A stretch of DNA of 64,000 nt from Cordylochernes scorpioides. Lineage: Eukaryota > Arthropoda > Arachnida > Pseudoscorpiones > Chernetidae. Numbering within the stretch: the stretch's first letter is position 1; every line of letters begins with the position of its first letter. Below are positions 833 to 15,202 of the stretch, in pieces. The notes under the pieces were generated by a model that ran no database searches, was not told where the DNA came from, and worked only from the letters and a program-made list of their open reading frames with translations. Location of the stretch: NCBI GenBank assembly GCA_030710605.1, contig CP092870.1:54077921-54141920 (forward strand), read 5' to 3'. The translations under genes were made by a program, and so were the position numbers.

Positions 833-2460
833 ATGAATAATTTTATCTCCAATATTGATGTTAAAAAGGCTCTTGGAATAGATAATATAAGAAATAATAT
901 GATAAAATGTGCCTTCTCCAAAATTGTATCGTTGTTAAATGAATTATTTAGTGAATGTTTTCAAAAAGGATATTATCCTGATGAATGGAAAAGAGCAGCT
1001 CTTAAAATAATTCCTAAACCTAACAAAACGAATTTAAAAATTGATAAAAGTATCTAATGTCAAATCTCTCCAAGAATTTTGAAAAATACCGAGAAATAAA
1101 ATTTATAATTTTATCAAGAAAATAATCTTTTAAGCAATAGACAGCATGAATCTATACAAATGAAATCAACGATAACATGTTCAGAAAAAATAACAGAGGT
1201 TATATTAGAACATAGACAGAATCATTCAGTGCCGTTAATTGCAATTGATATAGAGGGTGCATTTGACAACGCATGGTGGCCAGCTATTTTTAAAATAATA
1301 GATCACGATAATATGCCCGGTGAATTGATTAAAATGTTGCAATATTTCTTGAATAATAGAAAAACACTTTTTACGTATGGTGATAAGAAGGTCAATAAAA
1401 CAATATCAAAAGGCTGTCCACAGGTCGGGGGACCACTGTCTCCATTGCTATGTCTGATATTACTGAATGATTTATCAAATAAATGCAGATACCCAATTCT
1501 GAAATACTGTCTTATGGTGAAGATGTGTCACCTTGGAAAAAATCGATCAAAGGCGTACTTAAAACATACTAAAAATCATTCTTGAGAAAACTAACATTCT
1601 GCATTTGCAAAATAAAAACATGTCAGCAATTAAGTTAAATAAAAAAATAGGTTTGCCAATACAGAAATTTAAAATATTGGGAGTCACTTTTGCAAAAAAA
1701 AAATTTCAGAAAGAAAAAACTTAATTTCAATCCTCAAATAGTTATTATACTAAATAAAGCAAAATGATTCAAAAATCTACTACTGGCAATTTGTGGAAAA
1801 GCTTGGGATCCGAATATCCAAAAGAGACTTACATTGTACAAAACAATTATTAGGCAAATGATTTCTTATGGATAGAAGATCTGGTATAAATTTGTAAATA
1901 AAAATAATATAAATCAATTAAATTAATTTCGTGACCAAATACTATTATGGTGCAAGCAATCATATAAAACGACGAGTTCTAATTGTATACATACCATAGC
2001 CAAGATCCTTTGCTTAACGATTTAATTGAATCCAAAGATATGAAATATGAAAAAAAAATTAACTTTAGAAGAAAAACAAAAATACAATTTAGATGTTCAA
2101 AGCATAATAACGGATTTTATTGAATTTAAAATGGCTGCTATGAAGAACAACACAAATAACTCATTTCAAAGCTTCTTCCCTAACAACATACCAAAATATT
2201 TCCGACCAAACATTTTTTAATTCTCAAATCATTTATAATCATGGAAGTTTCAGAAGCTTTTAAAAATAATCAAAGCAGTGGAAGTCTCGAGTTGTTTTTT
2301 TGGACATGAGAAAAAAAAACTCAATACATCTTTTACTGGACTGTCCTGTTTTTCAGGACTATAGAATCAACAATAATGTGATAGTAACAGATCCAAGTAT
2401 TTTCATTTACAGTAAAGAAACGTATATTAAATTTGATAGCTTTTGTAGATATCTGTCGTA
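833..2460 (+). pseudogene. R1-clade-like non-LTR retrotransposon reverse transcriptase, decayed
   Basis: Frames at 833-1057 and 1160-1585 are pieces of one LINE reverse transcriptase. Visible motifs in order: fingers segment DEWKRAALKIIPKPNK; palm LIAIDIEGAFDNAWWP, typical of the R1 group; and GCPQVGGPLSPLL (core QG). The catalytic YXDD is degraded, with only a YGED-like remnant about 1515-1525 in another frame. Thumb-like (LYKTIIRQMISYG, about 1835) and terminal zinc-ribbon-like (LLDCPVF, about 2340) remnants follow in shifting frames. Numerous stops and frameshifts make it inactive. The 5' end (endonuclease, ORF1) is missing. The 3' UTR probably runs to about 3065, where the sequence ends in AATAAATAAA. 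R1-like is inferred from the palm motif; the orientation and RT identity are secure. Confidence 0.85.
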
Positions 2461-3379
2461 GCTAAATGAAGAGGCGCAGTCGTTATGCCTAGCGCGCCCG
2501 CGATGTCTGCCACTTTATTTTTTGTGCCGCCTTTTATACATGGATGAATTTACATATTTACATTTTAACGCAAGCGTAACATATTTACATACTTATTTGA
2601 CGAGAATAAATTGTATCTCTTGGCATTTTAACTATATACAAATACAACTATTATTAACTATATACATATACAAATTATGACATATATTTTAAATTATATA
2701 GCAACAAATATTTTTTAGGAAACTGATTTTTATATTATGCTGATTGTAGATATTGCCAGACATTTCTTTCTTTTGTACACAGTTCTCTGTTCACATTAAG
2801 ATTTAAGAGCTTCATTTGTTCTTAAAATGCTTAAACTCTTACATACATTTCTCTTCTCTTTTAATAATAATGATAATTGAAACAATTTTGATGTAAATAT
2901 TTGATGGAGATGTTTTTTTTTTCTCTTTCCCCTTGTTGATATCATATGACTATTCTTTACGGCCTAAAATTATTGTAAATATATCTATAGAGTAAAGTTG
3001 GGGCATACATGTATACAAGTATCCCTAGGGGTACATAGCGCTTTAAATAGGGAATAAATAAAAGAGAGAGATAATAATGTTATTTTAAAAATACATTTTC
3101 GGATCATTTAAGAATGTATAATTATTTTATATTGATTAGGGTTCATTCTAAAATAAAAAAATAATGTTTTTAAAAACATCTGATGCAGTAGATCTCCCTG
3201 TAAAGGGCACCTACTTTCAGAGTCAAACTGGCTTTTAGGGAGAGGTGTCTTCTTACCAGAGAGTTGCTAAATTGTAAAAATGGTGATTTAGGCTATAAAA
3301 ATTGTTATTTGTAGAAGGGGGCCTATGAAAAGAGTGTTCTTCCATAGGAGGTCTGGTGTAAAGATATATCCTTAGCATG
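2461..3379 (+). other. Probable LINE 3' UTR followed by AT-rich DNA
   Basis: AT-rich, no open frame. A short GC-richer stretch about 2465-2545 directly follows the decayed RT. The AATAAATAAA run at about 3052-3062 would suit the LINE 3' end. From about 3185 the sequence becomes the irregular lead-in to the 31-bp minisatellite. Confidence 0.4.
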
Positions 3380-4727
3380 GGTGTCCCCTCATGGAGGTTT
3401 TATTGTGGAGAGGTATCCTCTATGGAGGTTCTACGGTAGAGGGGTGTCCTCTATGGAGGATCTATGGTAGAGAGGTGTCTTCTATGGTGGTTCTACGGTA
3501 GAGGTGTGTTCTCTATGGAGGTTCTATGGTAGAAAGGTGTCTTCTATGGTGGTTCTACGGTAGAGGGGTGTTCTCTATGGATGTTCTACGGTAGCGAGGT
3601 GTCCTCTATGGAGGTTTAACGGTAGTAAGGTGTCCTCTATGGAGGTTCTATGGTAGAGGGGTGTCCTCTATGGAGGTTCTATGGTAGAGAGGTGTCTTCT
3701 ATGGTGGTTCTACGGTAGCGAGGTGTCCTCTATGGAGGTTTAACGGTAGTAAGGTGTCCTCTATGGAGGTTTTATGGTAGAGGGGTGTCCTCTATGGATG
3801 TTCTACGGTAGTTAGGTGTCCTCTATGGAAGTTCTACGGTAGCGAGGTGTCCTCTATGGAGGTTCTATGGTAGAGAGGTTTCCTCTATGGAGGTTCTACG
3901 GTAGAGGGGTGTCCTCTAAGAAGATTCTACGGTAGAGGGGTGTCCTCTATGAAAGTTTATGGTTGATGGGTGTCCTCTATGGAGGTTCTATGGCAGAGAG
4001 GTGTCCTCTATGGAGGTTCCACGGTAGGGAGGTGTCCTCTATGGAGGTATCTACGGTAGGGAGGTATCCTCTATGGAGGTTTTACGGTAGGGAGGAGTCC
4101 TGTATGGAGGTATCTACGGTAGGGAGGTGTCCTCTATGCAGGTGTTACGGTAGAGAGGTGTTCTTAATGGAGGTTTTTACGGTAGAATGGTTTCCTCTAT
4201 GGAGGTTTTACGGTAGAGAGGTGTTCTTTATGGAGATTTTACGGTAGGGAGGTGTCCTATATGGAGGTTTTATGGTAGTGAGGTGCCCTCTATGGAGGTG
4301 TTACGGTAGTGAGGTGTTCTCTATGGAGGTTTTACGGTAGGGAGCAGTTCTCTATGGAGGATTTACGGTAGAGAGGTGTCCTCTATGGAGGTTCTATGGT
4401 ATAGAGGTGTCCTCTATGGAAGTTCTATGATATAAAGGTGTCCTCTTTGAAGGTTCTATGGTATAGAGGTGTCCTTTATGAAGGTTCTATGGTATAGAGG
4501 TGTCCTCTCTGGAGATTCTATGGTATATAGGTGTCCTTTATGGAGGTTCTATGGTATAGAGGTGTCCTCTATGGAAGTTCTATGATATAAAGGTGTCCTC
4601 TCTGGAGGTTCTATGGTATAGATGTGTTCTTTATGGAGGTTCTATGGTATAGAGGTCTCCTCTATGGAGGTTCTATGGTATAGAGGTGTCCTCTATGGAG
4701 GTTCTATGGTATAGAGGTGTCTTTTCA
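3380..4727. repeat. 31-bp minisatellite array (about 43 units)
   Basis: Tandem array of a 31-bp unit containing TATGGTAGAGAGGTGTCC and TCTATGGAGGT. Three subdomains are visible. Roughly 3400-3990 shows higher-order alternation of TAGAGGGG and TAGAGAGG variants. Roughly 3990-4380 has CGGTAGGGAG units, some with one extra base. Roughly 4380-4727 is homogenised to the GGTATAGAGG variant. The 94-aa frame inside is only the translated repeat. A single related unit lies near 28035-28070, and a 28-bp cousin occurs at 7728-7839. Confidence 0.92.
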
Positions 4728-6399: not shown

Positions 6400-6895
6400 T
6401 CAAAATACATACAACATCCGCCAATAGATGGCGCTTTCTTCTATTTCCGGTCTGGAAATAATGTGGGAATCGCCGAATGCTGTGGTCCTGTTTCCTCGGG
6501 CAGATGTTTGTAAATGTACGTTTATATTGGCCCTAGAGGGTAACGTAATGTAAATACCCGTTGAGTGTTATTCTAGTTATATGTAAGGTGTAGTAGAAAT
6601 AACGATAAAAAAGGGAGGAGTGTTAGAAGTCTTGTTGCCGGTTGCTGTTATGCCTCTCTCGCCAACACCACAGTCGCTACTCTTCTCGTGTCCCCCATCA
6701 GTGGTAAGGCCGAGAGATACTGCCAGAGAAAAGGAGATCCACTGAGTGGTGGTTCTTTGCGTGGTCTGCAGGGTAGAGCAACGGGAGCCCGGGGCAGGTG
6801 TACACGAAGGGGGAAGCGGCATCGTCGCGAAGAACCGAAGAGGTCGGCGCGCGACAATATTAAGTTTACTAAACAATCTTATAGAAAAATGTGAG
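6400..6895. other. GC-richer island, possibly an LTR or promoter fragment
   Basis: A second GC-rich island with overlapping short frames on both strands, none recognised. The part at 6600-6870 is purine-rich and lacks the codon pattern of a conserved protein. It could be an LTR or leader fragment, but no matching repeat was found in the window. Confidence 0.2.
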
Positions 6896-7727
6896 AATAT
6901 AAATTTGTACTCAATCTTATGAACATTGCGTGACTCTGAATTTGCAATGTAAGAAATTCTGGCAGAAATATATGCAATAACAACAAGCGTTTTATTGGGG
7001 ACATATGCCCTACACAGGATTCGCCCTGGTGATAACCGTCCAGATAAGATTAGTTGTTTACAAGTGATCGTTTATTAATATATTTCTATTTACACCGGGT
7101 TCTCTTAAATCAGTGTTTTTTCTCTTGCACAGCCCTATAAAACTTGTTCAGGGTCAATGCACTATATTTAAATTTCAAGATAAATTTTTATAACAGAGTT
7201 ATGTTCAAAATACAAATTGCTATCCCGCGCATATTTATTAGAATATAAGAGAGGGAACTTGCAAAGTTGCTTATATTCGCACCTCTTTATCTGAAGATGA
7301 TTCATTCAGTTTGTATATAAAAATTATGATAATGTGTATGATATAACTACAAAATATATACGAAATAGTTTTTTTTAAATTTAATTTTAGGCTTTGAGAA
7401 TGGTCTTTATGTTAATCTAAATAAACAAATGCGTACATGCAAAATTTTCCAATGAATATTCAGTAGTTTGGGTGGAAAATATTAATTTATCTTTAGAAGA
7501 AGAGTGAATGTTTGCCAAAAGTGGACATCATACACGAGGCAGCAACATTGTAATAATATTTGAACTGAAAAATATGTAAATTATATTAGCAAGTATATAG
7601 TTGAGTAGAATGTTTATGATAATTCAAAACGTAGTGAATACTAGAGAGGAAGTTTAAATTTTAATCAGAATTATCAAATATCGAGGAAACGTAGATAAGG
7701 CACAAATAAATAAGCAAAATAAATATT
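6896..7727. other. AT-rich sequence, nothing recognised
   Basis: No supported coding, RNA or repeat feature. Confidence 0.4.
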
Positions 7728-8810: not shown

Positions 8811-9052
8811 AAATATAGATATATGTTGAAGTCTCAATCACCTTTGCCTGAAATCAAATTTTGGGGCATTCTTTTGATTATTTTTAGAAGTGCGACTATA
8901 AAATTTGAAAAAAAAAATATTTTTTACATTTTTCTAGAACCTACCATCATATTTGCTCCAGTAAGGGCAGTAGAAAATTGTTTCATTAAAAATATATATA
9001 TAAGCGTCAAAAATAGTTTGAATATACATACGTTAATTATATATGTATATAA

Positions 9053-9977
9053 ATAGCAGTAAAGTTCGGATTTAGTTTTTTTATGTTTGGTTATCCAAAA
9101 AGGTTATAAGACATGAAAATTTATTTAAATTGAACATTATAAAATTAAGTTCCAATTTACATTTTTCATTTTTTATTTCTGATATGAGTGTGGACATATA
9201 TAAGTTTAACTATAATTCTGTATATTGTGATTTATCTTTAACATCACAATATTATTTGTAGAGTTTGAGTATTTTCACACAAATATCTACATATTCACAT
9301 ACATCCACATTTATTTGTAATGAATAATTAATATATCATTTCATATTCTATATTTCTACAATATAAAAAAATATAATTTTTAAACATTTGAAGTTTTTTA
9401 TAAGGTTACTAGGCCTCTCTCTTTCCAACAATGGCAGTTATTTTATTACTTATCTTAATTAGTGGAATTTAATTTTGTCTTTGTGAAATAACTTGAATAG
9501 ATTTAAGCCGTGTTTTGATCCCAAATCTTGAATGGTATAATGGAATCAATTACAAACTCAATATATAATAGAGATATAAGCTGATCAATTGCGCACTAGA
9601 TATGGAAGCAAATTATTTATCAAACACCACTCGATATGAAGTCAATTTATGTTCTAAAAAACGTGCACTGGATATGGAATAGATCTGAGTAGCGATCAAA
9701 CATGAACTGGATATTAGATCAAACTTTCAAATAATCGAGCTAGCATATGATATCAAATCAATTGATAAACTGATCAAAGCGCTCTGGGTTTGTTATCACA
9801 CACAAATTGAAAAATTGATCAAACGCGCACTGGATATGGATTCAATATATGAATTGATAAAAAACACAAAATATATAAGGAATCAATATATAAATTGATC
9901 AAAAGCGCACTGGAAATGCAATCAATATATAAATTGAATAAATTCGCTCTGGATATGATTTCATTCTATAAATTGAT
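9053..9977 (+). repeat. Repeat Z, copy 1, 5' part
   Basis: Matches, in inverted orientation, the segment 58292-56990. Shared landmarks in order are AATAGCAGTAAAGTT, ATCTTTAACATCACAATAT, ATTAATATATCATTT and the GAAGTTTTTT plus ACTAGGCCTCT block, then the 39-bp satellite. Copy 1 continues at 15203 after removal of the palindrome and Tc1 insertion. Z encodes no recognised protein. Confidence 0.7.
9540..9977 (+). repeat. 39-bp satellite in repeat Z, copy 1
   Basis: About ten degenerate units with consensus words CTGGATATGGATTCAATATA, TGAATTGATCAAA and CGCGCA. The same unit, better preserved and inverted, occupies 39100-39440 and 57000-57900, where its frame encodes a 13-residue repeat (LDMESIYELIKRA-like). 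Confidence 0.8.
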
Positions 9978-9999
9978 AGTAGTTTAGTAAAGCGCATCC

Positions 10000-10520
10000 C
10001 CAATTCACTTTAATTGTCGTACGTCCTATTAGAGCCCGCTTCAAAAAATTTGTGTATTATAATTCACTGTAATTGGCTTACGTCTGGAGATTCCCCGTAA
10101 TAAAACTTTAAATACAACTTTTTTTTTTTTTTTTAAATGTGTTGCATCCCCAATTCACTTTAATTGGCCTATGTCCTATATGTGCGTTAAATAGCTGGGA
10201 ACGTAAGAGAGATCTTTCGAAGGCCGTAATAAATTGGCTTACGTCTGGAGATTCCCCGTAATAAAACTTTAAATACAACTTTTTTTTTTTTTTTAAATGT
10301 GTTGCATCCCCAATTCACTTTAATTGGCCTATGTCCTATATGTGCGTTAAATAGCTGGGAACGTAAGAGAGATCTTTCGAAGGCCGTAATAAATCACTGC
10401 CGCTTCTAAAATAGTCATAGGTGACCATTCCTTAGATGGAGGTAATAAAATCTTTTCTCAAATAGCTGGCCGTCATTTTAATTGCCCTAAGGATTCCCAA
10501 TTCACTTTAATTGCCCTCCT
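10000..10520 (+). promoter_or_regulatory. Repeated regulatory-like modules, left arm
   Basis: The motif AATTCACTTTAATTG followed by TACGTC or a variant recurs at about 10001, 10060, 10150, 10312 and 10500, and again at about 11471. A segment of about 161 bp containing it, TTAAATAGCTGG and CGTAAGAGAGATCTTTCG is tandemly duplicated (about 10072-10232 and 10233-10393). TACGTCA resembles half of a CRE/ATF site. The array lies directly upstream of the 128-aa gene, like an enhancer. The role is inferred. Confidence 0.5.
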
Positions 10521-10579
10521 ACGTCATAGGTATTGGAATAATGTTACAAGTATATGACGTAATGTCAGGGTCATATATA

Positions 10580-10617
10580 CATATATATATAGGCCGATAT
10601 TTTCTCATATTGTCAGC
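10580..10617 (+). promoter_or_regulatory. TATA box and initiator-like site of the left 128-aa gene
   Basis: ATATATATATAGG (about 10579-10592) lies roughly 25-30 nt upstream of TTGTCAGCTTTC (about 10610-10621), an arthropod-type initiator (TCA core). The predicted 5' UTR is about 28 nt long and ends at the ATG at 10640. The mirror image is in the right arm near 13468-13505. Confidence 0.5.
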
Positions 10618-10639
10618 TTTCATAAAGAGTGAAAGCAAC

Positions 10640-11026
10640 ATGGAAGTAAAAAATTTGCCAAATTTAGTTAAAGAAGTTATTGAAACAATTTTGGAGAAAG
10701 GTCTTTTATTAAAAAAGAATCAATTTGTAGATGTAATTTATGAATTCCCTATTTCTTTCGAATATTCTACTAAAGAAGAGGAAAGAAAAGTTTCCTATTT
10801 TAATAGGTTTTTTAAAAACCATTTATTTCAAATGTATGATGAAAGTGGAAATTTTATTGAGGATTTTTTGGATGATTTTATGCACACACCTGAGTGTGAA
10901 GGCGACGCATGGCTTTATTCAAAAGAATTATTTGAAAAAATAATCGAAGCTTATTCCCAAGCTTGCAATTCGGTCCTGCAAATCCAGGCTTGCAATCACG
11001 AAGAAGAAGAAGACAACGACACTTAG
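10640..11026 (+). CDS. Unrecognised 128-aa acidic-tailed protein, left-arm copy
   Basis: I do not recognise this protein. I chose the ATG at 10640 because it has the arthropod-style context CAACATGG and lies just after a TATA/initiator pair. The frame is open further upstream, but that extension would lie in the promoter. The protein is rich in Phe, Tyr, Glu and Asp, has no signal peptide or clear membrane helix, and looks helical and cytosolic or nuclear. It carries a paired-acid stretch ESGNFIEDFLDDF and ends in the acidic run EEEEDNDT. Two Cys (QACN, IQACN) lie near the end. AATAAA follows at 11081-11086, 55 nt past the stop, so the unit is compact and intronless. The copy at 13445-13059 is identical except for Ser versus Phe in EAYSQACN. 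Maintenance of both frames suggests function or recent duplication. Confidence 0.65.
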   Translation: MEVKNLPNLVKEVIETILEKGLLLKKNQFVDVIYEFPISFEYSTKEEERKVSYFNRFFKNHLFQMYDESGNFIEDFLDDFMHTPECEGDAWLYSKELFEKIIEAYSQACNSVLQIQACNHEEEEDNDT

Positions 11027-11080
11027 AGGAAAAATGTATAGAAGGACTCTATGAACACTTATATATGTGTTTAAAAATGT

Positions 11081-11086
11081 AATAAA
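11081..11086 (+). terminator. Poly(A) signal of left 128-aa gene
   Basis: AATAAA 55 nt after the stop codon at 11026, followed by GTTCATGTT. The mirrored copy is at 13004-12999 on the minus strand. Confidence 0.6.
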
Positions 11087-11299
11087 GTTCATGTTAAAAA
11101 CAAAAAAAAGTGTGTGCTCATTAAAAAAAAATCTGTCATATCTTTTACCAACTAATTTAATATTTATGGAAATATGTGTCACAAATATGTTTAAAAAAAA
11201 AAGTGTATATTTTTAAATGTCATAGCTTTACTATTGTAAAATTTCACCCACATGATGACGACAAAAAAAAAAGCGAGTATAAAATGCTGGAATTTTTCT

Positions 11300-11775
11300 T
11301 GATGGTGTCTGAACGTAAGAGATCTCTCTTTTTTTTTTGCCCCATAAATCCTCTGCAGTTGTTATTTTTAGAGCCGCTTCTTGACCTTAGACCTGGCACA
11401 ATTCGATGGACGTAATAACCACTTTTTAAATTGCAGCACGTCGTGTCGTGGAAAAAAAAAATTGTATTAAAATTCACTTTTTAATTGGCGTACGTCTGGA
11501 TTCCCCTAATAAACTTTCCTTGTAAGAGATCTATCTTTTTTTTTGTCATAAATCCTCTGTAGGTGACCATTCCTTAGATGGAGGTAATAAAAACTTTAAA
11601 TAACATTTTTAATTGCATATAGGCCGATATTTTTCTCAAATTGCAGTCAGATCATAAATTTTGTATTAAAATTCTGCCCTATGCGTCGTGGATTGCAGCA
11701 GGTTTTTTTTGGAGCAAATGACAGTGTTAAATAGCTGGACCAAACAGTTTCGGATTTAAATTTTTCCAACATGAG
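11300..11775 (+). promoter_or_regulatory. Second promoter-like region and coding exon 1 (ATGAG|GTAAGT), left arm
   Basis: Modules seen in the outer array recur here: GTAAGAGATCTCTCT (about 11316), AATTCACTTTTTAATTGG (about 11471), TGTAAGAGATCTATC (about 11521) and TTAAATAGCTGGACC (about 11728). The segment leads to CCAACATGAG at 11766-11775, followed by the consensus splice donor GTAAGT (11776-11781). TTAAATAG about 40 nt upstream of the ATG may act as a TATA-like element. The identical exon on the minus strand of the right arm is at 12304-12300. Confidence 0.45.
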
Positions 11776-12218
11776 GTAAGTTTTGTTTCTTGTTTATTGA
11801 ATGTGTTTTTCTCATAATCAGAAAAACTTTACTAGGTAATTAAAAAAAAATATTTCAATCTAGTGGTGAGAGGTGAGAAAGTTCACCTGGCATACACACA
11901 TCCTGTGGTGATTCAAGAATGTGTATAAAATCATCCGCTGAAAGTTCTTCCATACAGACATCTCCCGATGGTCCGAGAACTTGTTCCAATTCACAAGAGA
12001 GGTCTGGAAGTACATCTACTGTACCTTCGGTCGAGCGGAAAGACCACCTTTCTAGATAGCCATTGAGCGCACTTGCCTCCAAGCGTAGACACCTAAAAAA
12101 TAATAATAATAAATATATATATCAGGTTAATTCCATTCCAAATGAAAAAAACATTAGCGTATTGGTTAACTCCATTGCTCTAATGTTTTTTTTTTTTTGC
12201 TAGGTTCAAATCTCATTG
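11776..12218 (+). other. Mirror intron and short alternative exon 2 on the plus strand
   Basis: Read on the plus strand from the left-arm exon ATGAG (11771-11775), the core offers a strong acceptor: a T-run ending GCTAG at about 12203. Joining gives a six-codon frame (MRFKSH) that stops at TGA at about 12216-12218, again at the arm/core boundary. The core therefore carries a long coding exon in one direction and a null exon in the other. Confidence 0.4.
11793..11798 (-). terminator. Poly(A) signal for the core gene (minus strand)
   Basis: AATAAA on the minus strand (within CATTCAATAAAC), 57 nt downstream of the TGA at 11857-11855. It lies in the left arm, inside what would be the intron of a plus-strand transcript. 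The arms therefore supply the promoter at one end and the 3' processing signal at the other. Confidence 0.5.
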
Positions 12219-12304
12219 AAATATATTTTTTTAAATTACCTAGTAAAGTTTTTCTGATTATGAGAAAAACACATTCAATAAACAAGAAACAAAACTTACC
12301 TCAT
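11855..12304 (-). CDS. Spliced 80-aa unrecognised protein spanning arm and core
   Basis: Two exons: 12304-12300 (ATGAG) in the right arm, then a 207-nt intron with consensus donor GTAAGT and acceptor TTATTTTTTAG, then exon 2 at 12092-11855. The junction is in frame (ATG AGG TGT CTA CGC). The product starts MRCLRLEASAL and ends SHLSPLD. It is acidic, with clusters such as MEELSADDFIHILESP that resemble short transcriptional-activation segments; that is inference only. No domain, signal peptide or membrane helix is seen. The start context is CCAACATGA. Stop TGA lies exactly at the arm/core boundary, and AATAAA follows at 11798-11793. An unspliced frame without an ATG extends only to about 12082, which supports the splice model. 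cDNA evidence is absent, so the structure is predicted. Confidence 0.55.
12093..12299 (-). other. Predicted intron of the 80-aa gene
   Basis: Donor GT at 12299-12298 (GTAAGTTTTG), acceptor AG at 12094-12093 after a T-rich tract. The intron crosses the right-arm/core boundary at 12214/12215. Confidence 0.5.
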
Positions 12305-12998
12305 GTTGGAAAAATTTAAATCCGAAACTGTTTGGTCCAGCTATTTAACACTGTCACTTGCTCCAAAAAAAAACCTGCTGCAATCCACGACGCATAGGGC
12401 CGAATTTTAATACAAAATTTATGATCTGACTGCAATTTGAGAAAAATATCGGCCTATATGCAATTAAAAATGTTATTTAAAGTTTTTATTACCTCCATCT
12501 AAGGAATGGTCACCTACAGAGGATTTATGACAAAAAAAAAGATAGATCTCTTACAAGGAAAGTTTATTAGGGGAATCCAGACGTACGCCAATTAAAAAGT
12601 GAATTTTAATACAATTTTTTTTTTCCACGACACGACGTGCTGCAATTTAAAAAGTGGTTATTACGTCCATCGAATTGTGCCAGGTCTAAGGTCAAGAAGC
12701 GGCTCTAAAAATGACAACTGCAGAGGATTTATGGGGCAAAAAAAAAAAAAAGAGAGATCTCTTACGTTCAGACACCATCAAGAAAAATTCCAGCATTTTA
12801 TACTCGCTTTTTTTTTGTCGTCATCATGTGGGTGAAATTTTACAATAGTAAAGCTATGACATTTAAAAATATACACTTTTTTTTTTTTAAAACATATTTG
12901 TGACACATATTTCCATAAATATTAAATTAGTTGGTAAAAGATATGACAGATTTTTTTTTAATGAGCACACACTTTTTTGTTTTGTTTTTAACATGAAC

Positions 12999-13004
12999 TT
13001 TATT
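12999..13004 (-). terminator. Poly(A) signal of right 128-aa gene
   Basis: AATAAA on the minus strand, 55 nt past the stop at 13059; exact mirror of the left-arm signal. Confidence 0.6.
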
Positions 13005-13058
13005 ACATTTTTAAACACATATATAAGTGTTCATAGAGTCCTTCTATACATTTTTCCT

Positions 13059-13445
13059 CTAAGTGTCGTTGTCTTCTTCTTCTTCGTGATTGCAAGCCTG
13101 GATTTGCAGGACCGAATTGCAAGCTTGGAAATAAGCTTCGATTATTTTTTCAAATAATTCTTTTGAATAAAGCCATGCGTCGCCTTCACACTCAGGTGTG
13201 TGCATAAAATCATCCAAAAAATCCTCAATAAAATTTCCACTTTCATCATACATTTGAAATAAATGGTTTTTAAAAAACCTATTAAAATAGGAAACTTTTC
13301 TTTCCTCTTCTTTAGTAGAATATTCGAAAGAAATAGGGAATTCATAAATTACATCTACAAATTGATTCTTTTTTAATAAAAGACCTTTCTCCAAAATTGT
13401 TTCAATAACTTCTTTAACTAAATTTGGCAAATTTTTTACTTCCAT
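13059..13445 (-). CDS. Unrecognised 128-aa acidic-tailed protein, right-arm copy
   Basis: Mirror copy of the left-arm gene with the same CAACATGG start, TATA box and poly(A) signal. It differs by one residue (Phe for Ser in EAYFQACN). Both copies are transcribed toward the palindrome centre. Near-identity over nearly 1.9 kb of flanking non-coding arm shows that the whole arm was duplicated or is kept alike by gene conversion, so identity alone does not prove selection on the protein. Family unknown. Confidence 0.65.
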   Translation of the reverse strand: MEVKNLPNLVKEVIETILEKGLLLKKNQFVDVIYEFPISFEYSTKEEERKVSYFNRFFKNHLFQMYDESGNFIEDFLDDFMHTPECEGDAWLYSKELFEKIIEAYFQACNSVLQIQACNHEEEEDNDT

Positions 13446-13559
13446 GTTGCTTTCACTCTTTATGAAAGCTGACAATATGAGAAAATATCGGCCTATATAT
13501 ATATGTATATATGACCCTGACATTACGTCATATACTTGTAACATTATTCCAATACCTAT

Positions 13560-14085
13560 GACGTAGGAGGGCAATTAAAGTGAATTGGGAATCCTTAGGG
13601 CAATTAAAATGACGGCCAGCTATTTGAGAAAAGATTTTATTACCTCCATCTAAGGAATGGTCACCTATGACTATTTTAGAAGCGGCAGTGATTTATTACG
13701 GCCTTCGAAAGATCTCTCTTACGTTCCCAGCTATTTAACGCACATATAGGACATAGGCCAATTAAAGTGAATTGGGGATGCAACACATTAAAAAAAAAAA
13801 AGTTGTATTTAAAGTTTTATTACGGGGAATCTCCAGACGTAAGCCAATTTATTACGGCCTTCGAAAGATCTCTCTTACGTTCCCAGCTATTTAACGCACA
13901 TATAGGACATAGGCCAATTAAAGTGAATTGGGGATGCAACACATTTAAAAAAAAAAAAGTTGTATTTAAAGTTTTATTACGGGGAATCTCCAGACGTAAG
14001 CCAATTAGAGTGAATTATAATACACAAATTTTTTGAAGCGGGCTCTAATAGGACGTACGACAATTAAAGTGAATTGGGGATGCGC
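13560..14085 (-). promoter_or_regulatory. Repeated regulatory-like modules, right arm
   Basis: Mirror of the left outer array, including the tandem duplication of about 161 bp (about 13690-14010 overall). CAATTAAAGTGAATTG, the complement of the shared motif, is seen at about 13573, 13760, 13917 and 14060, with a variant at about 14005. Confidence 0.5.
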
Positions 14086-14099
14086 TTTACTAAACTACT

Positions 14100-14957
14100 G
14101 ATGTCCCAGACGTGCTCGATTGGTGAGAGATCAGGAGAGTACGGTGGCCAGGGAAGCATCTGTACATCTTGCAGAGCTTGTTGGCTAATGAGAGCAGTGT
14201 GCGGTCGGGCCTTATCCTGCTGATAAAGGGCATTGGGTACCTCCTGAAGGTACGGGAGTGTCACCGGTCGCAGCACATCATCAACGTATCGTTGGGCCGT
14301 CATAGTGCCCTGAATACGAAGTAAAGGTGACCTGGAATCATACGTGATTGCGCCCCAAACCATGATTCCACGTTGTCGCACGGTGGGGCGTTCCACAATT
14401 GCTGCCGGATTGGACCTTTCTCCACGTCGACGCCAAACGCGTACACGGCGACTATCACTGGACAAGCAGAAACGCGACTCATCTGAGAACACGACCCTGT
14501 GCCATTCCGTCATCCACGTCGATCTAGCCCGGCATCATTCCAAACGTTGGCGCCTATTCGGTGGGGTCAATGGCAGTCTTCTTAGCGGACGGCATGAGTG
14601 CAAGCCATTAGCAACCAATCGACGGGAAATGGTTCTGGTCGAGATGGAATGATCTAGGGTGTCTTGCACATGTTGCAGGATGGCGGTACAAGTGGCTTGT
14701 GGGGTCGCCACTGCTTGTCGAAGGATACGCCGATCCACACGTGCTGACGTCACTCTGGTTGCACCGACATTCCTATTAATTGCCACATTTCCTTGTTCCA
14801 ACCATCTTCTCCACAGTCGGTGCACCGTGGACGCACCAAGGTGTGTATCAGCTGCGATTTGACGTATGGACCAACCTGACCTTTTCAGTCCTATCACCAT
14901 GCCCCTCGTAAAAGCGTCTGTCTGCTTGAACTGCCTCCGTTTACGATGACCTGGCAT
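14100..14957 (-). pseudogene. Tc1-family transposase, one stop and truncated C-terminus
   Basis: Cut-and-paste DDE transposase. N-terminal helix-turn-helix region: MPGHRKRRQFKQ, GLKRSGWSIRQIA, LGASTVHRLWRRW. Catalytic region: VVFSDESRF (first Asp), QQDKARPHTA (second Asp; the family usually has DNARPHTA, so Asn is Lys here), and PPYSPDLSPIEHVWD (Glu), a DD34E layout. A TGA interrupts the frame at about 14532 in place of the expected Trp of a LEWCRA-like motif. The frame leaves Tc1 sequence at WDI, just before the palindrome. Roughly the last 40-60 residues and the distal terminal repeat are absent. Not functional. Confidence 0.9.
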
Positions 14958-15200
14958 TCTCTGTTATTACACGTGTCTTTTGACACAAGAACAAAATTTC
15001 TACAATGATTTTCCTTGAAGAAATAACGACACGAATACTGTCCTTTCTGCAAGTTCCTTCCCTTATATCTTACTCCATGTGCGCACGAGAGCTGCGCATT
15101 TTACACCATTTGCATAACTCGGTTAGGCGCGTCTACCCTGAAATTTGCATAATTTTCTGGCCACTATTTCTTGGTGTTCCATTTTCAATGTCACGCAGTG
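14100..15200 (-). mobile_element. Tc1-like transposon, 3'-truncated
   Basis: The intact end lies at 15200, where the minus strand begins CACTGCGTGACATTG next to a TA (15201-15202). The opposite end is missing: the sequence stops inside the transposase at 14100, precisely where the palindrome begins. The Tc1 sits in repeat Z, whose sequence resumes at 15203. Confidence 0.85.
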
Positions 15201-15202
15201 TA

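Follow-up and report, generated by a model that had tools for sequence, protein, structure and literature searches.

A symmetric Polinton/Maverick derivative carrying one element end twice in the genome of the pseudoscorpion Cordylochernes scorpioides

Background

That the Polintons (Mavericks) of animals replicate outside the chromosome as linear, protein-primed DNA has been deduced from their genes. Within a 64,000-nucleotide stretch of the genome of the pseudoscorpion Cordylochernes scorpioides (GenBank assembly GCA_030710605.1, contig CP092870.1, positions 54,077,921 to 54,141,920 of the forward strand; referred to here as the window) is a 4.1-kb palindrome that belongs to this family and carries one Polinton end twice, head to head. 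Comparable inverted derivatives occur in an adenovirus, in the kalilo plasmid (judging by a title) and, by another route, in cytomegalovirus. The symmetric recombinant (SYREC) of adenovirus 12, a protein-primed linear DNA, is a palindrome bearing the left end at each terminus; unlike the window copy, it is a packaged virus with host DNA inside and not a chromosomal insertion. Our literature search for SYREC found no paper. In Neurospora mitochondria, a deletion derivative of the kalilo linear plasmid reportedly forms hairpin and duplex DNA, as Vierula and Bertrand put it in a title of 1992. By that title alone, it resembles the window palindrome as a hairpin-forming deletion derivative of a linear plasmid and differs as a mitochondrial plasmid.

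Such linear plasmids replicate by protein priming, according to the portion of PMC11071308 drawn on here. In variants of human cytomegalovirus AD169 and Towne, an inverted duplicate of the left end takes the place of a region at the right end; the likeness lies in one end region giving way to an inverted copy of the other, the difference in a herpesvirus with another mode of replication, known here from laboratory strains (PMC2885757, in part). Galileo and foldback-like transposons have long, internally repetitive terminal inverted repeats (TIRs), but Galileo has a P-superfamily transposase, whereas the window arms are a Polinton end with a gene (PMC3688188, in part). In vertebrate Mavericks, AGTAGT/ACTACT is the commonest end motif, its repetition being expected to serve jumping-back in protein-primed replication; the TIRs of intact elements span 46–1447 bp, and the intact elements showed no introns, as given in the portion of PMC8097293 drawn on here.

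A palindrome with a unique core

The palindrome is composed of two arms and a core.
9978–14099, no strand: whole palindromic Polinton derivative, 4122 bp, AGTAGT...ACTACT
9978–11849, plus strand: left arm, an inverted copy of the polymerase-side Polinton end, from arm alignment and own-genome matches
12226–14099, minus strand: right arm, the polymerase-side Polinton end, from arm alignment and own-genome matches
10120–10394, plus strand: tandem pair of ~160-bp units within the left arm, with a mirror copy at 13691–13957

The arms, each of about 1.87 kb, differ by 6 substitutions and 7 gap runs over 1863 aligned bases, all of the gap runs lying inside or adjoining A/T runs. Between them is a unique core of 355 bp (11860–12214; an imperfect 26-bp inner homology is counted with the arms). 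Arms and core are thus as the original prediction, made from the letters alone, had described them. It had passed over the termini, AGTAGT at 9978–9983 and ACTACT at 14094–14099, as well as the missing target-site duplication (TSD) and five AATTCACTTTAATTG-like motifs in each arm. The boundary was set by the arm alignment and not picked to fit a motif, and AGTAGT occurs at 16 of 127,990 positions over both strands of the window. The arms hold 10 of the 11 matches to the AATTCACTTTAATTG-like motif in the window (0.89 expected); together with the tandem units and the TATA-like modules described below, these repeats look regulatory. Simple tandem repeats are not the material of the arms, in which the ~160-bp units occupy a part and the remainder is gene and dispersed short repeats, and the element is, as had been stated, neither a simple-repeat foldback nor a transposon with one transposase.

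Identity with the Polinton/Maverick family

Searched with the palindrome (40 of 605 candidates scored), the assembly contains many further copies of the arm as single ends. Among the matches listed, core plus right arm (query positions 1881–4122) matches many loci as a single end, the best four at 98–99%, and the whole query matches in one piece at the window locus only. A search with PF03175 (PolB) scored 91 of 286 candidates and gave 80 matches, of which 65 were used for comparison with the ends. Of 39 listed ends, 24 have a PF03175 match at a distance of 1310–1677 bp past their core side, 19 of them at 1405–1411 bp; the 39 include both ends of a palindrome on contig C17 and the ends from the window and from locus L009, neither of which has a match.

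Copies with both ends were sought with the outer 163 bases (40 of 284 candidates scored). Ten are ordinary, nine of 15.9–16.8 kb and one of 13.7 kb, and all ten pair an end of the gene 1/polymerase type with one of a different, 'far' type, between identical 6-bp flanks. Encoded in the family are an rve integrase (4.7e-16) and a Pox_A32 ATPase (6.2e-6), both in L020, and a Peptidase_C5 protease (2.9e-7) in L015; Pfam scans of 15 open reading frames of L015 and L020 named no capsid protein, and no search aimed at capsids was made. Judged by these sequences, the family is Polinton/Maverick (adintovirus-like), since integrase, A32-type ATPase, adenovirus-type protease, PolB, 6-bp TSDs and the end motif all occur in it; the (AGT)2//(ACT)2 ends of the window copy match the motif in the part of PMC8097293 used here. 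The window copy departs from the other family copies in having two identical ends and no TSD, and its open reading frames include none for PolB, integrase, packaging ATPase or adenovirus-type protease. DNA patterns of the ends gave 0 matches in viral_contigs.

At the far end of the ordinary copies the resemblance to the arm is short.
9978–10612, plus strand: left-arm part common to the far end of ordinary copies, the normal TIR of ~0.64 kb (query positions 1–635 at ~97% in 3/3 far ends, L015, L016 and L017)

In these three far ends only diverged pieces match beyond the outer 635 bases, and the ordinary TIR is therefore placed at about 0.64 kb. By comparison, the window arms exceed the TIR range of intact vertebrate Mavericks quoted above. 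The diverged pieces (L015:6300–6580, and in L016 and L017) come from the gene 1 region at 80–87%, with a stop in the matched frame, and may be a decayed relative of gene 1.

The proposal that the palindrome is a candidate new element type thus gives way to the finding that its arm is the end of a Polinton/Maverick family with ordinary 16-kb copies in the same assembly, and the suspected kinship with linear DNA replicons or viruses with terminal repeats is vindicated by that identity. The long arms, and a gene 1 with no known domain or fold match, would suit a foldback element or some other new kind of transposon that moves by a system of its own; since ordinary 16-kb Polintons of this genome have the arm as one of their ends, we give that idea hardly any credence. 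The identity is ordinary and the form unusual, being symmetric, gene-doubling and recurrent.

Of 15 copies with both ends examined, ten are ordinary, one is a deletion and four are palindromes, and 14 have a TSD; this tally is not an unbiased rate, the searches having scored limited numbers of candidates and the C17 palindrome having come from the palindrome and PF03175 searches and not from the end-pair search. L047 (2243 bp, TSD CCTGGA) was considered as a palindrome and rejected, being an internal deletion with TIRs of ~0.59 kb. At L022 (C18:27804622 and 27804728), two Polinton termini in the same orientation lie 106 bp apart at one end. The polymerase-side end of L014 (C11:79126774–79129992) is interrupted by ~970 bp of other sequence and has gene-1-like fragments.

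Three sister palindromes

Elsewhere in the assembly are three further palindromes, of 3.84, 7.31 and 16.17 kb, with arm boundaries that are all different and each with a perfect 6-bp TSD.
C8:84115689–84119528: L009, 3840 bp, TSD ACCAGA; arms differing by 8 substitutions and 7 gap runs over 1592 bases
C2:56505718–56513029: L048, 7312 bp, TSD ATAGAT; arms differing by 4 substitutions and 2 gap runs over 3559 bases
C17:64812883–64829050: C17 palindrome, ~16.17 kb, TSD ACCGCG; two facing polymerase matches

L009 is inserted in a reading frame that resembles, by eye, a Penelope-type endonuclease. It retains 99 bp beyond the core edge of the window copy, and the same bases adjoin the core in 7/7 loci compared (6 copies). 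Flanking the L009 palindrome is an inverted repeat of ~0.5 kb with 95% identity (L009:1948–2440 and 6654–7147). The ends of L048 each comprise ~190 bp of TIR followed by the polymerase region, with the joint in the gene 2 region at the centre; around the PF03175 match is a 1047-codon open frame in the left arm, and the right-arm frame is split. The arms of the C17 palindrome are ~5.46 kb long, judged from two stretches: the outer 2.3 kb, with 4 substitutions and 6 gap runs over 2294 bases, and the inner 343 bp, with a single substitution. The unique centre of this palindrome, ~5.25 kb, holds integrase and ATPase. At 64829050 (L019) this palindrome ends in three ACT triplets instead of two, with the perfect 6-bp TSD outside, which looks like a jump-back slip. 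All four palindromes carry two copies of gene 1, of the polymerase gene or of both, one copy being broken in L009 and probably in L048.

As each sister bears a perfect 6-bp TSD, it was inserted as a palindrome; going by these sequences, the TSDs indicate insertion as units and are not evidence on the replication step. The original prediction had also envisaged an arm that was half of a known transposon or viral segment duplicated solely at this locus: it is indeed the end of a known kind of element, but palindromes recur at three other places. The sisters bear too on an assembly foldback at the window locus, which the prediction had held unlikely. Such an error would fit a locus known from assembly sequence alone and the lack of a TSD; the 6 differing sites and 7 gap runs between the arms, the unique core, the unlike flanks and the TSD-bearing palindromes elsewhere make it most improbable.

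Origin of the palindrome

Family identity, end duplication, the joint and the three TSD-bearing sisters with other boundaries are read directly from the assembly.
11858–11859, no strand: joint of the window palindrome, 2 nt (AT) common to both sides

The window palindrome is probably a non-autonomous symmetric Polinton/Maverick derivative, formed by the joining of two copies of one end outside the chromosome and then inserted by integrase. From an ordinary element of ~16 kb, with gene 1 and a deeper polymerase gene at one end and the other genes at the other, the derivative would have kept the polymerase-side end twice, head to head, and lost everything else. In such an event, 2242 bp of one molecule (core plus right arm) would have been joined, through the 2 shared nt, to the reversed 1882 bp of the same end. 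Both termini would be true Polinton termini, in principle usable by the polymerase and integrase of ordinary copies. The joint may have formed, still outside the chromosome, by end-joining of two broken linear molecules or by snap-back of a displaced strand in protein-primed replication; the family's integrase would then have inserted the ready palindrome, as the TSDs of the sisters suggest. At the window locus this insertion would have been abnormal, with no duplication and with some host sequence seemingly lost.

Hairpin replication, which had been proposed, stands as one possible origin, and end-joining fits at least as well. Common to both sides of the joint are 2 nt in the window, 1 in L009 and 2 in L048; joints of 1–2 nt in three of four palindromes, and unpaired cores of ~0.19 to 5.25 kb, are no less compatible with end-joining than with snap-back, and the 5.25-kb core of C17 is awkward as a snap-back product.

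Several observations weigh against the proposed origin. The window copy has no TSD (its flanks are ATTGAT and GATGTC), unlike the 14 further copies examined at both ends, each of which has one. Among the matches listed, 15 of the 39 ends have no nearby PolB match. L048 is not two whole polymerase-side ends: past the ~190-bp TIR its ends match neither reference end, so that a second deletion was required. The two window arms share no private sites, and the left arm is as near to L003 (6/1863) as to the right arm (7/1856), with the L009 left arm at 5/1483; on these sequence comparisons the window arms may derive from two separate copies. The lack of a shared private site weakens the idea of a snap-back within one copy, and end-joining of two molecules fits equally. 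The same private-site test gives 0 for L009 and 3 for C17, and single ends carry 0–13, one 39; because they have as few as 0–2, the test does not choose between the routes.

Insertion site

The flanks of the window palindrome are repetitive, and outside the palindrome the window consists of chromosomal DNA bearing copia-, gypsy-, mariner/Tc1- and non-LTR-like (LTR, long terminal repeat) frames.
9052–9977, no strand: left flank, a repeat with a tandem array; paralogues at 57.0–58.3 kb and 39.2–39.4 kb
14100–15202, minus strand: right flank, a Tc1-like transposon truncated at the right border of the palindrome

The Tc1-like transposase at 14100–15202 is present as two open frames, a helix–turn–helix (HTH) part and a DDE part, and its coding frame is cut by the palindrome. 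A paralogue within the window has the array, ~270 bp, and then the site of the Tc1-like element, in the order and orientation of the flanks. By this comparison both flanks seem to belong to one repeat unit, and the host DNA between them seems to have been partly lost.

The palindrome could alternatively have arisen in place, from two ordinary Polintons inserted in opposite orientation in the repeat array and the Tc1-like element, with a later deletion fusing their polymerase-side ends in the chromosome. In its favour are the absent TSD and mismatched flanks, the arms without common private sites, site 11718, at which the left arm has an A as in L003 alone of the copies compared, and the 2-nt joint, as in end-joining. 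Yet the three sisters, with their perfect TSDs, formed before insertion; the window flanks look like correctly ordered and oriented pieces of a single repeat unit, so two insertions within ~1 kb would be needed; and the private-site test is weak, since L004, an ordinary copy, also scores 0 in it. We regard fusion in the chromosome as unlikely. Our preferred reading is that an already formed palindrome inserted abnormally, given that three such palindromes entered other loci ready-made and that fusion would require those two insertions to have happened independently. The likelihoods attached here to the readings of the window locus are judgements, not computed values.

Gene 1 and gene 2

Each arm contains one complete small gene and the start of a second; all assignments of promoters, splicing and poly(A) sites are visual.
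10640–11026, plus strand: gene 1, left copy, an open reading frame of 128 amino acids
13059–13445, minus strand: gene 1, right copy; one amino-acid difference, S/F, at 10956/13129
11617–11643, plus strand: second promoter-like module, repeating the module at 10587–10612 upstream of gene 1; promoter reading by eye
12300–12304, minus strand: predicted exon 1 of gene 2 (ATGAG, then GTAAGT); inverted duplicate at 11771–11775 on the plus strand in the left arm, with no exon to join
11855–12092, minus strand: gene 2, predicted exon 2, lying within the core; cut off at the joint, its stop codon created by the joint

The 128-residue frame reported earlier for each arm is present in both. When the gene 1 DNA was base-shuffled, a 128-codon open frame was kept in 0/2000 trials. 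All 24 distinct loci with the polymerase-side end read have at least a partial match to gene 1, and at 16 of them the match covers all 128 residues and is free of stops (L009 by its left arm, its right copy being broken); the match contains a stop in L004, L005, L014, L030 and L031 and is partial in L032, L036 and L037. The pooled pairwise ratio of nonsynonymous to synonymous divergence (dN/dS) is 0.39 (0.0096/0.0248), from 351 non-independent pairs of 27 sequences, the two window arms plus 25 loci, with stop codons skipped and L009, L010, L014, L031, L032, L036, L037, L043 and L045 left out. This ratio suggests purifying selection on gene 1 during the spread of the family.

Protein searches against viral collections, proposed earlier, gave no match for either gene. 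Gene 1 has no match in Pfam (as a 161-residue reading), viral_contigs or genome_contigs; its best E value is 0.097 in PHROGs and 1 in PDB sequences, and among 5.8 billion proteins it gave 10 candidates, none at E ≤ 1. An AlphaFold2 model from the single sequence is all-helical, with a mean pLDDT of 70 and a pTM of 0.57 (45–58 for the other four models), and Foldseek with this model gave nothing below E 1.1 (viral) or 1.5 (PDB). The product is predicted, with modest confidence, to be a small helical protein; as these searches gave it no protein or fold match, no function is claimed.

The TATA-like module occurs, by eye, twice in each arm, before gene 1 and before the short exon 1 of gene 2. The second promoter and first exon originally assigned to both arms are there as sequence, although the left copy lacks a partner exon. 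Taken by itself, exon 2 offers weak coding evidence, because its 77 open codons were kept in 423/5000 shuffles; its frame is also kept in other family copies. Past the core edge the frame continues in 7/7 non-palindromic loci read (L002–L006, L010 and L014; 6 copies), for 36 more residues and past a donor-like CGAG, then GTAAGA. The window therefore has a truncated 5′ part of a longer gene, which sits on the polymerase strand and is possibly part of the polymerase gene. A complete 80-residue gene 2 running across the core to a poly(A) signal in the other arm was considered and dropped, as the frame continues in ordinary copies; this 80-residue reading has no match in PDB sequences, viral_contigs, 5.8 billion proteins or Pfam. 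The predicted intron of gene 2 sets the family apart from the intact vertebrate Mavericks, which showed none (PMC8097293, in part).

Meaning for Polinton biology

Our literature search, with thin coverage of subscription literature, found no paper on palindromic Polintons. Palindromes with differing joints point to a recurring way of remaking Polintons. We offer tentatively, with more doubt than conviction, the wider proposal that the protein-primed replication of animal Polintons regularly yields symmetric forms, which arise repeatedly, keep two usable ends and doubled genes, and spread as satellites of full-length copies; C17 would then be a genome-sized symmetric form, its extra triplet recording jump-back priming. 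Palindromes that differ in their boundaries and are flanked by clean 6-bp duplications would be fossils of pre-insertion molecules, and the extrachromosomal replication of Polintons would therefore be testable from assemblies alone. If the palindromes spread, they would be a satellite class parallel to defective viral genomes.

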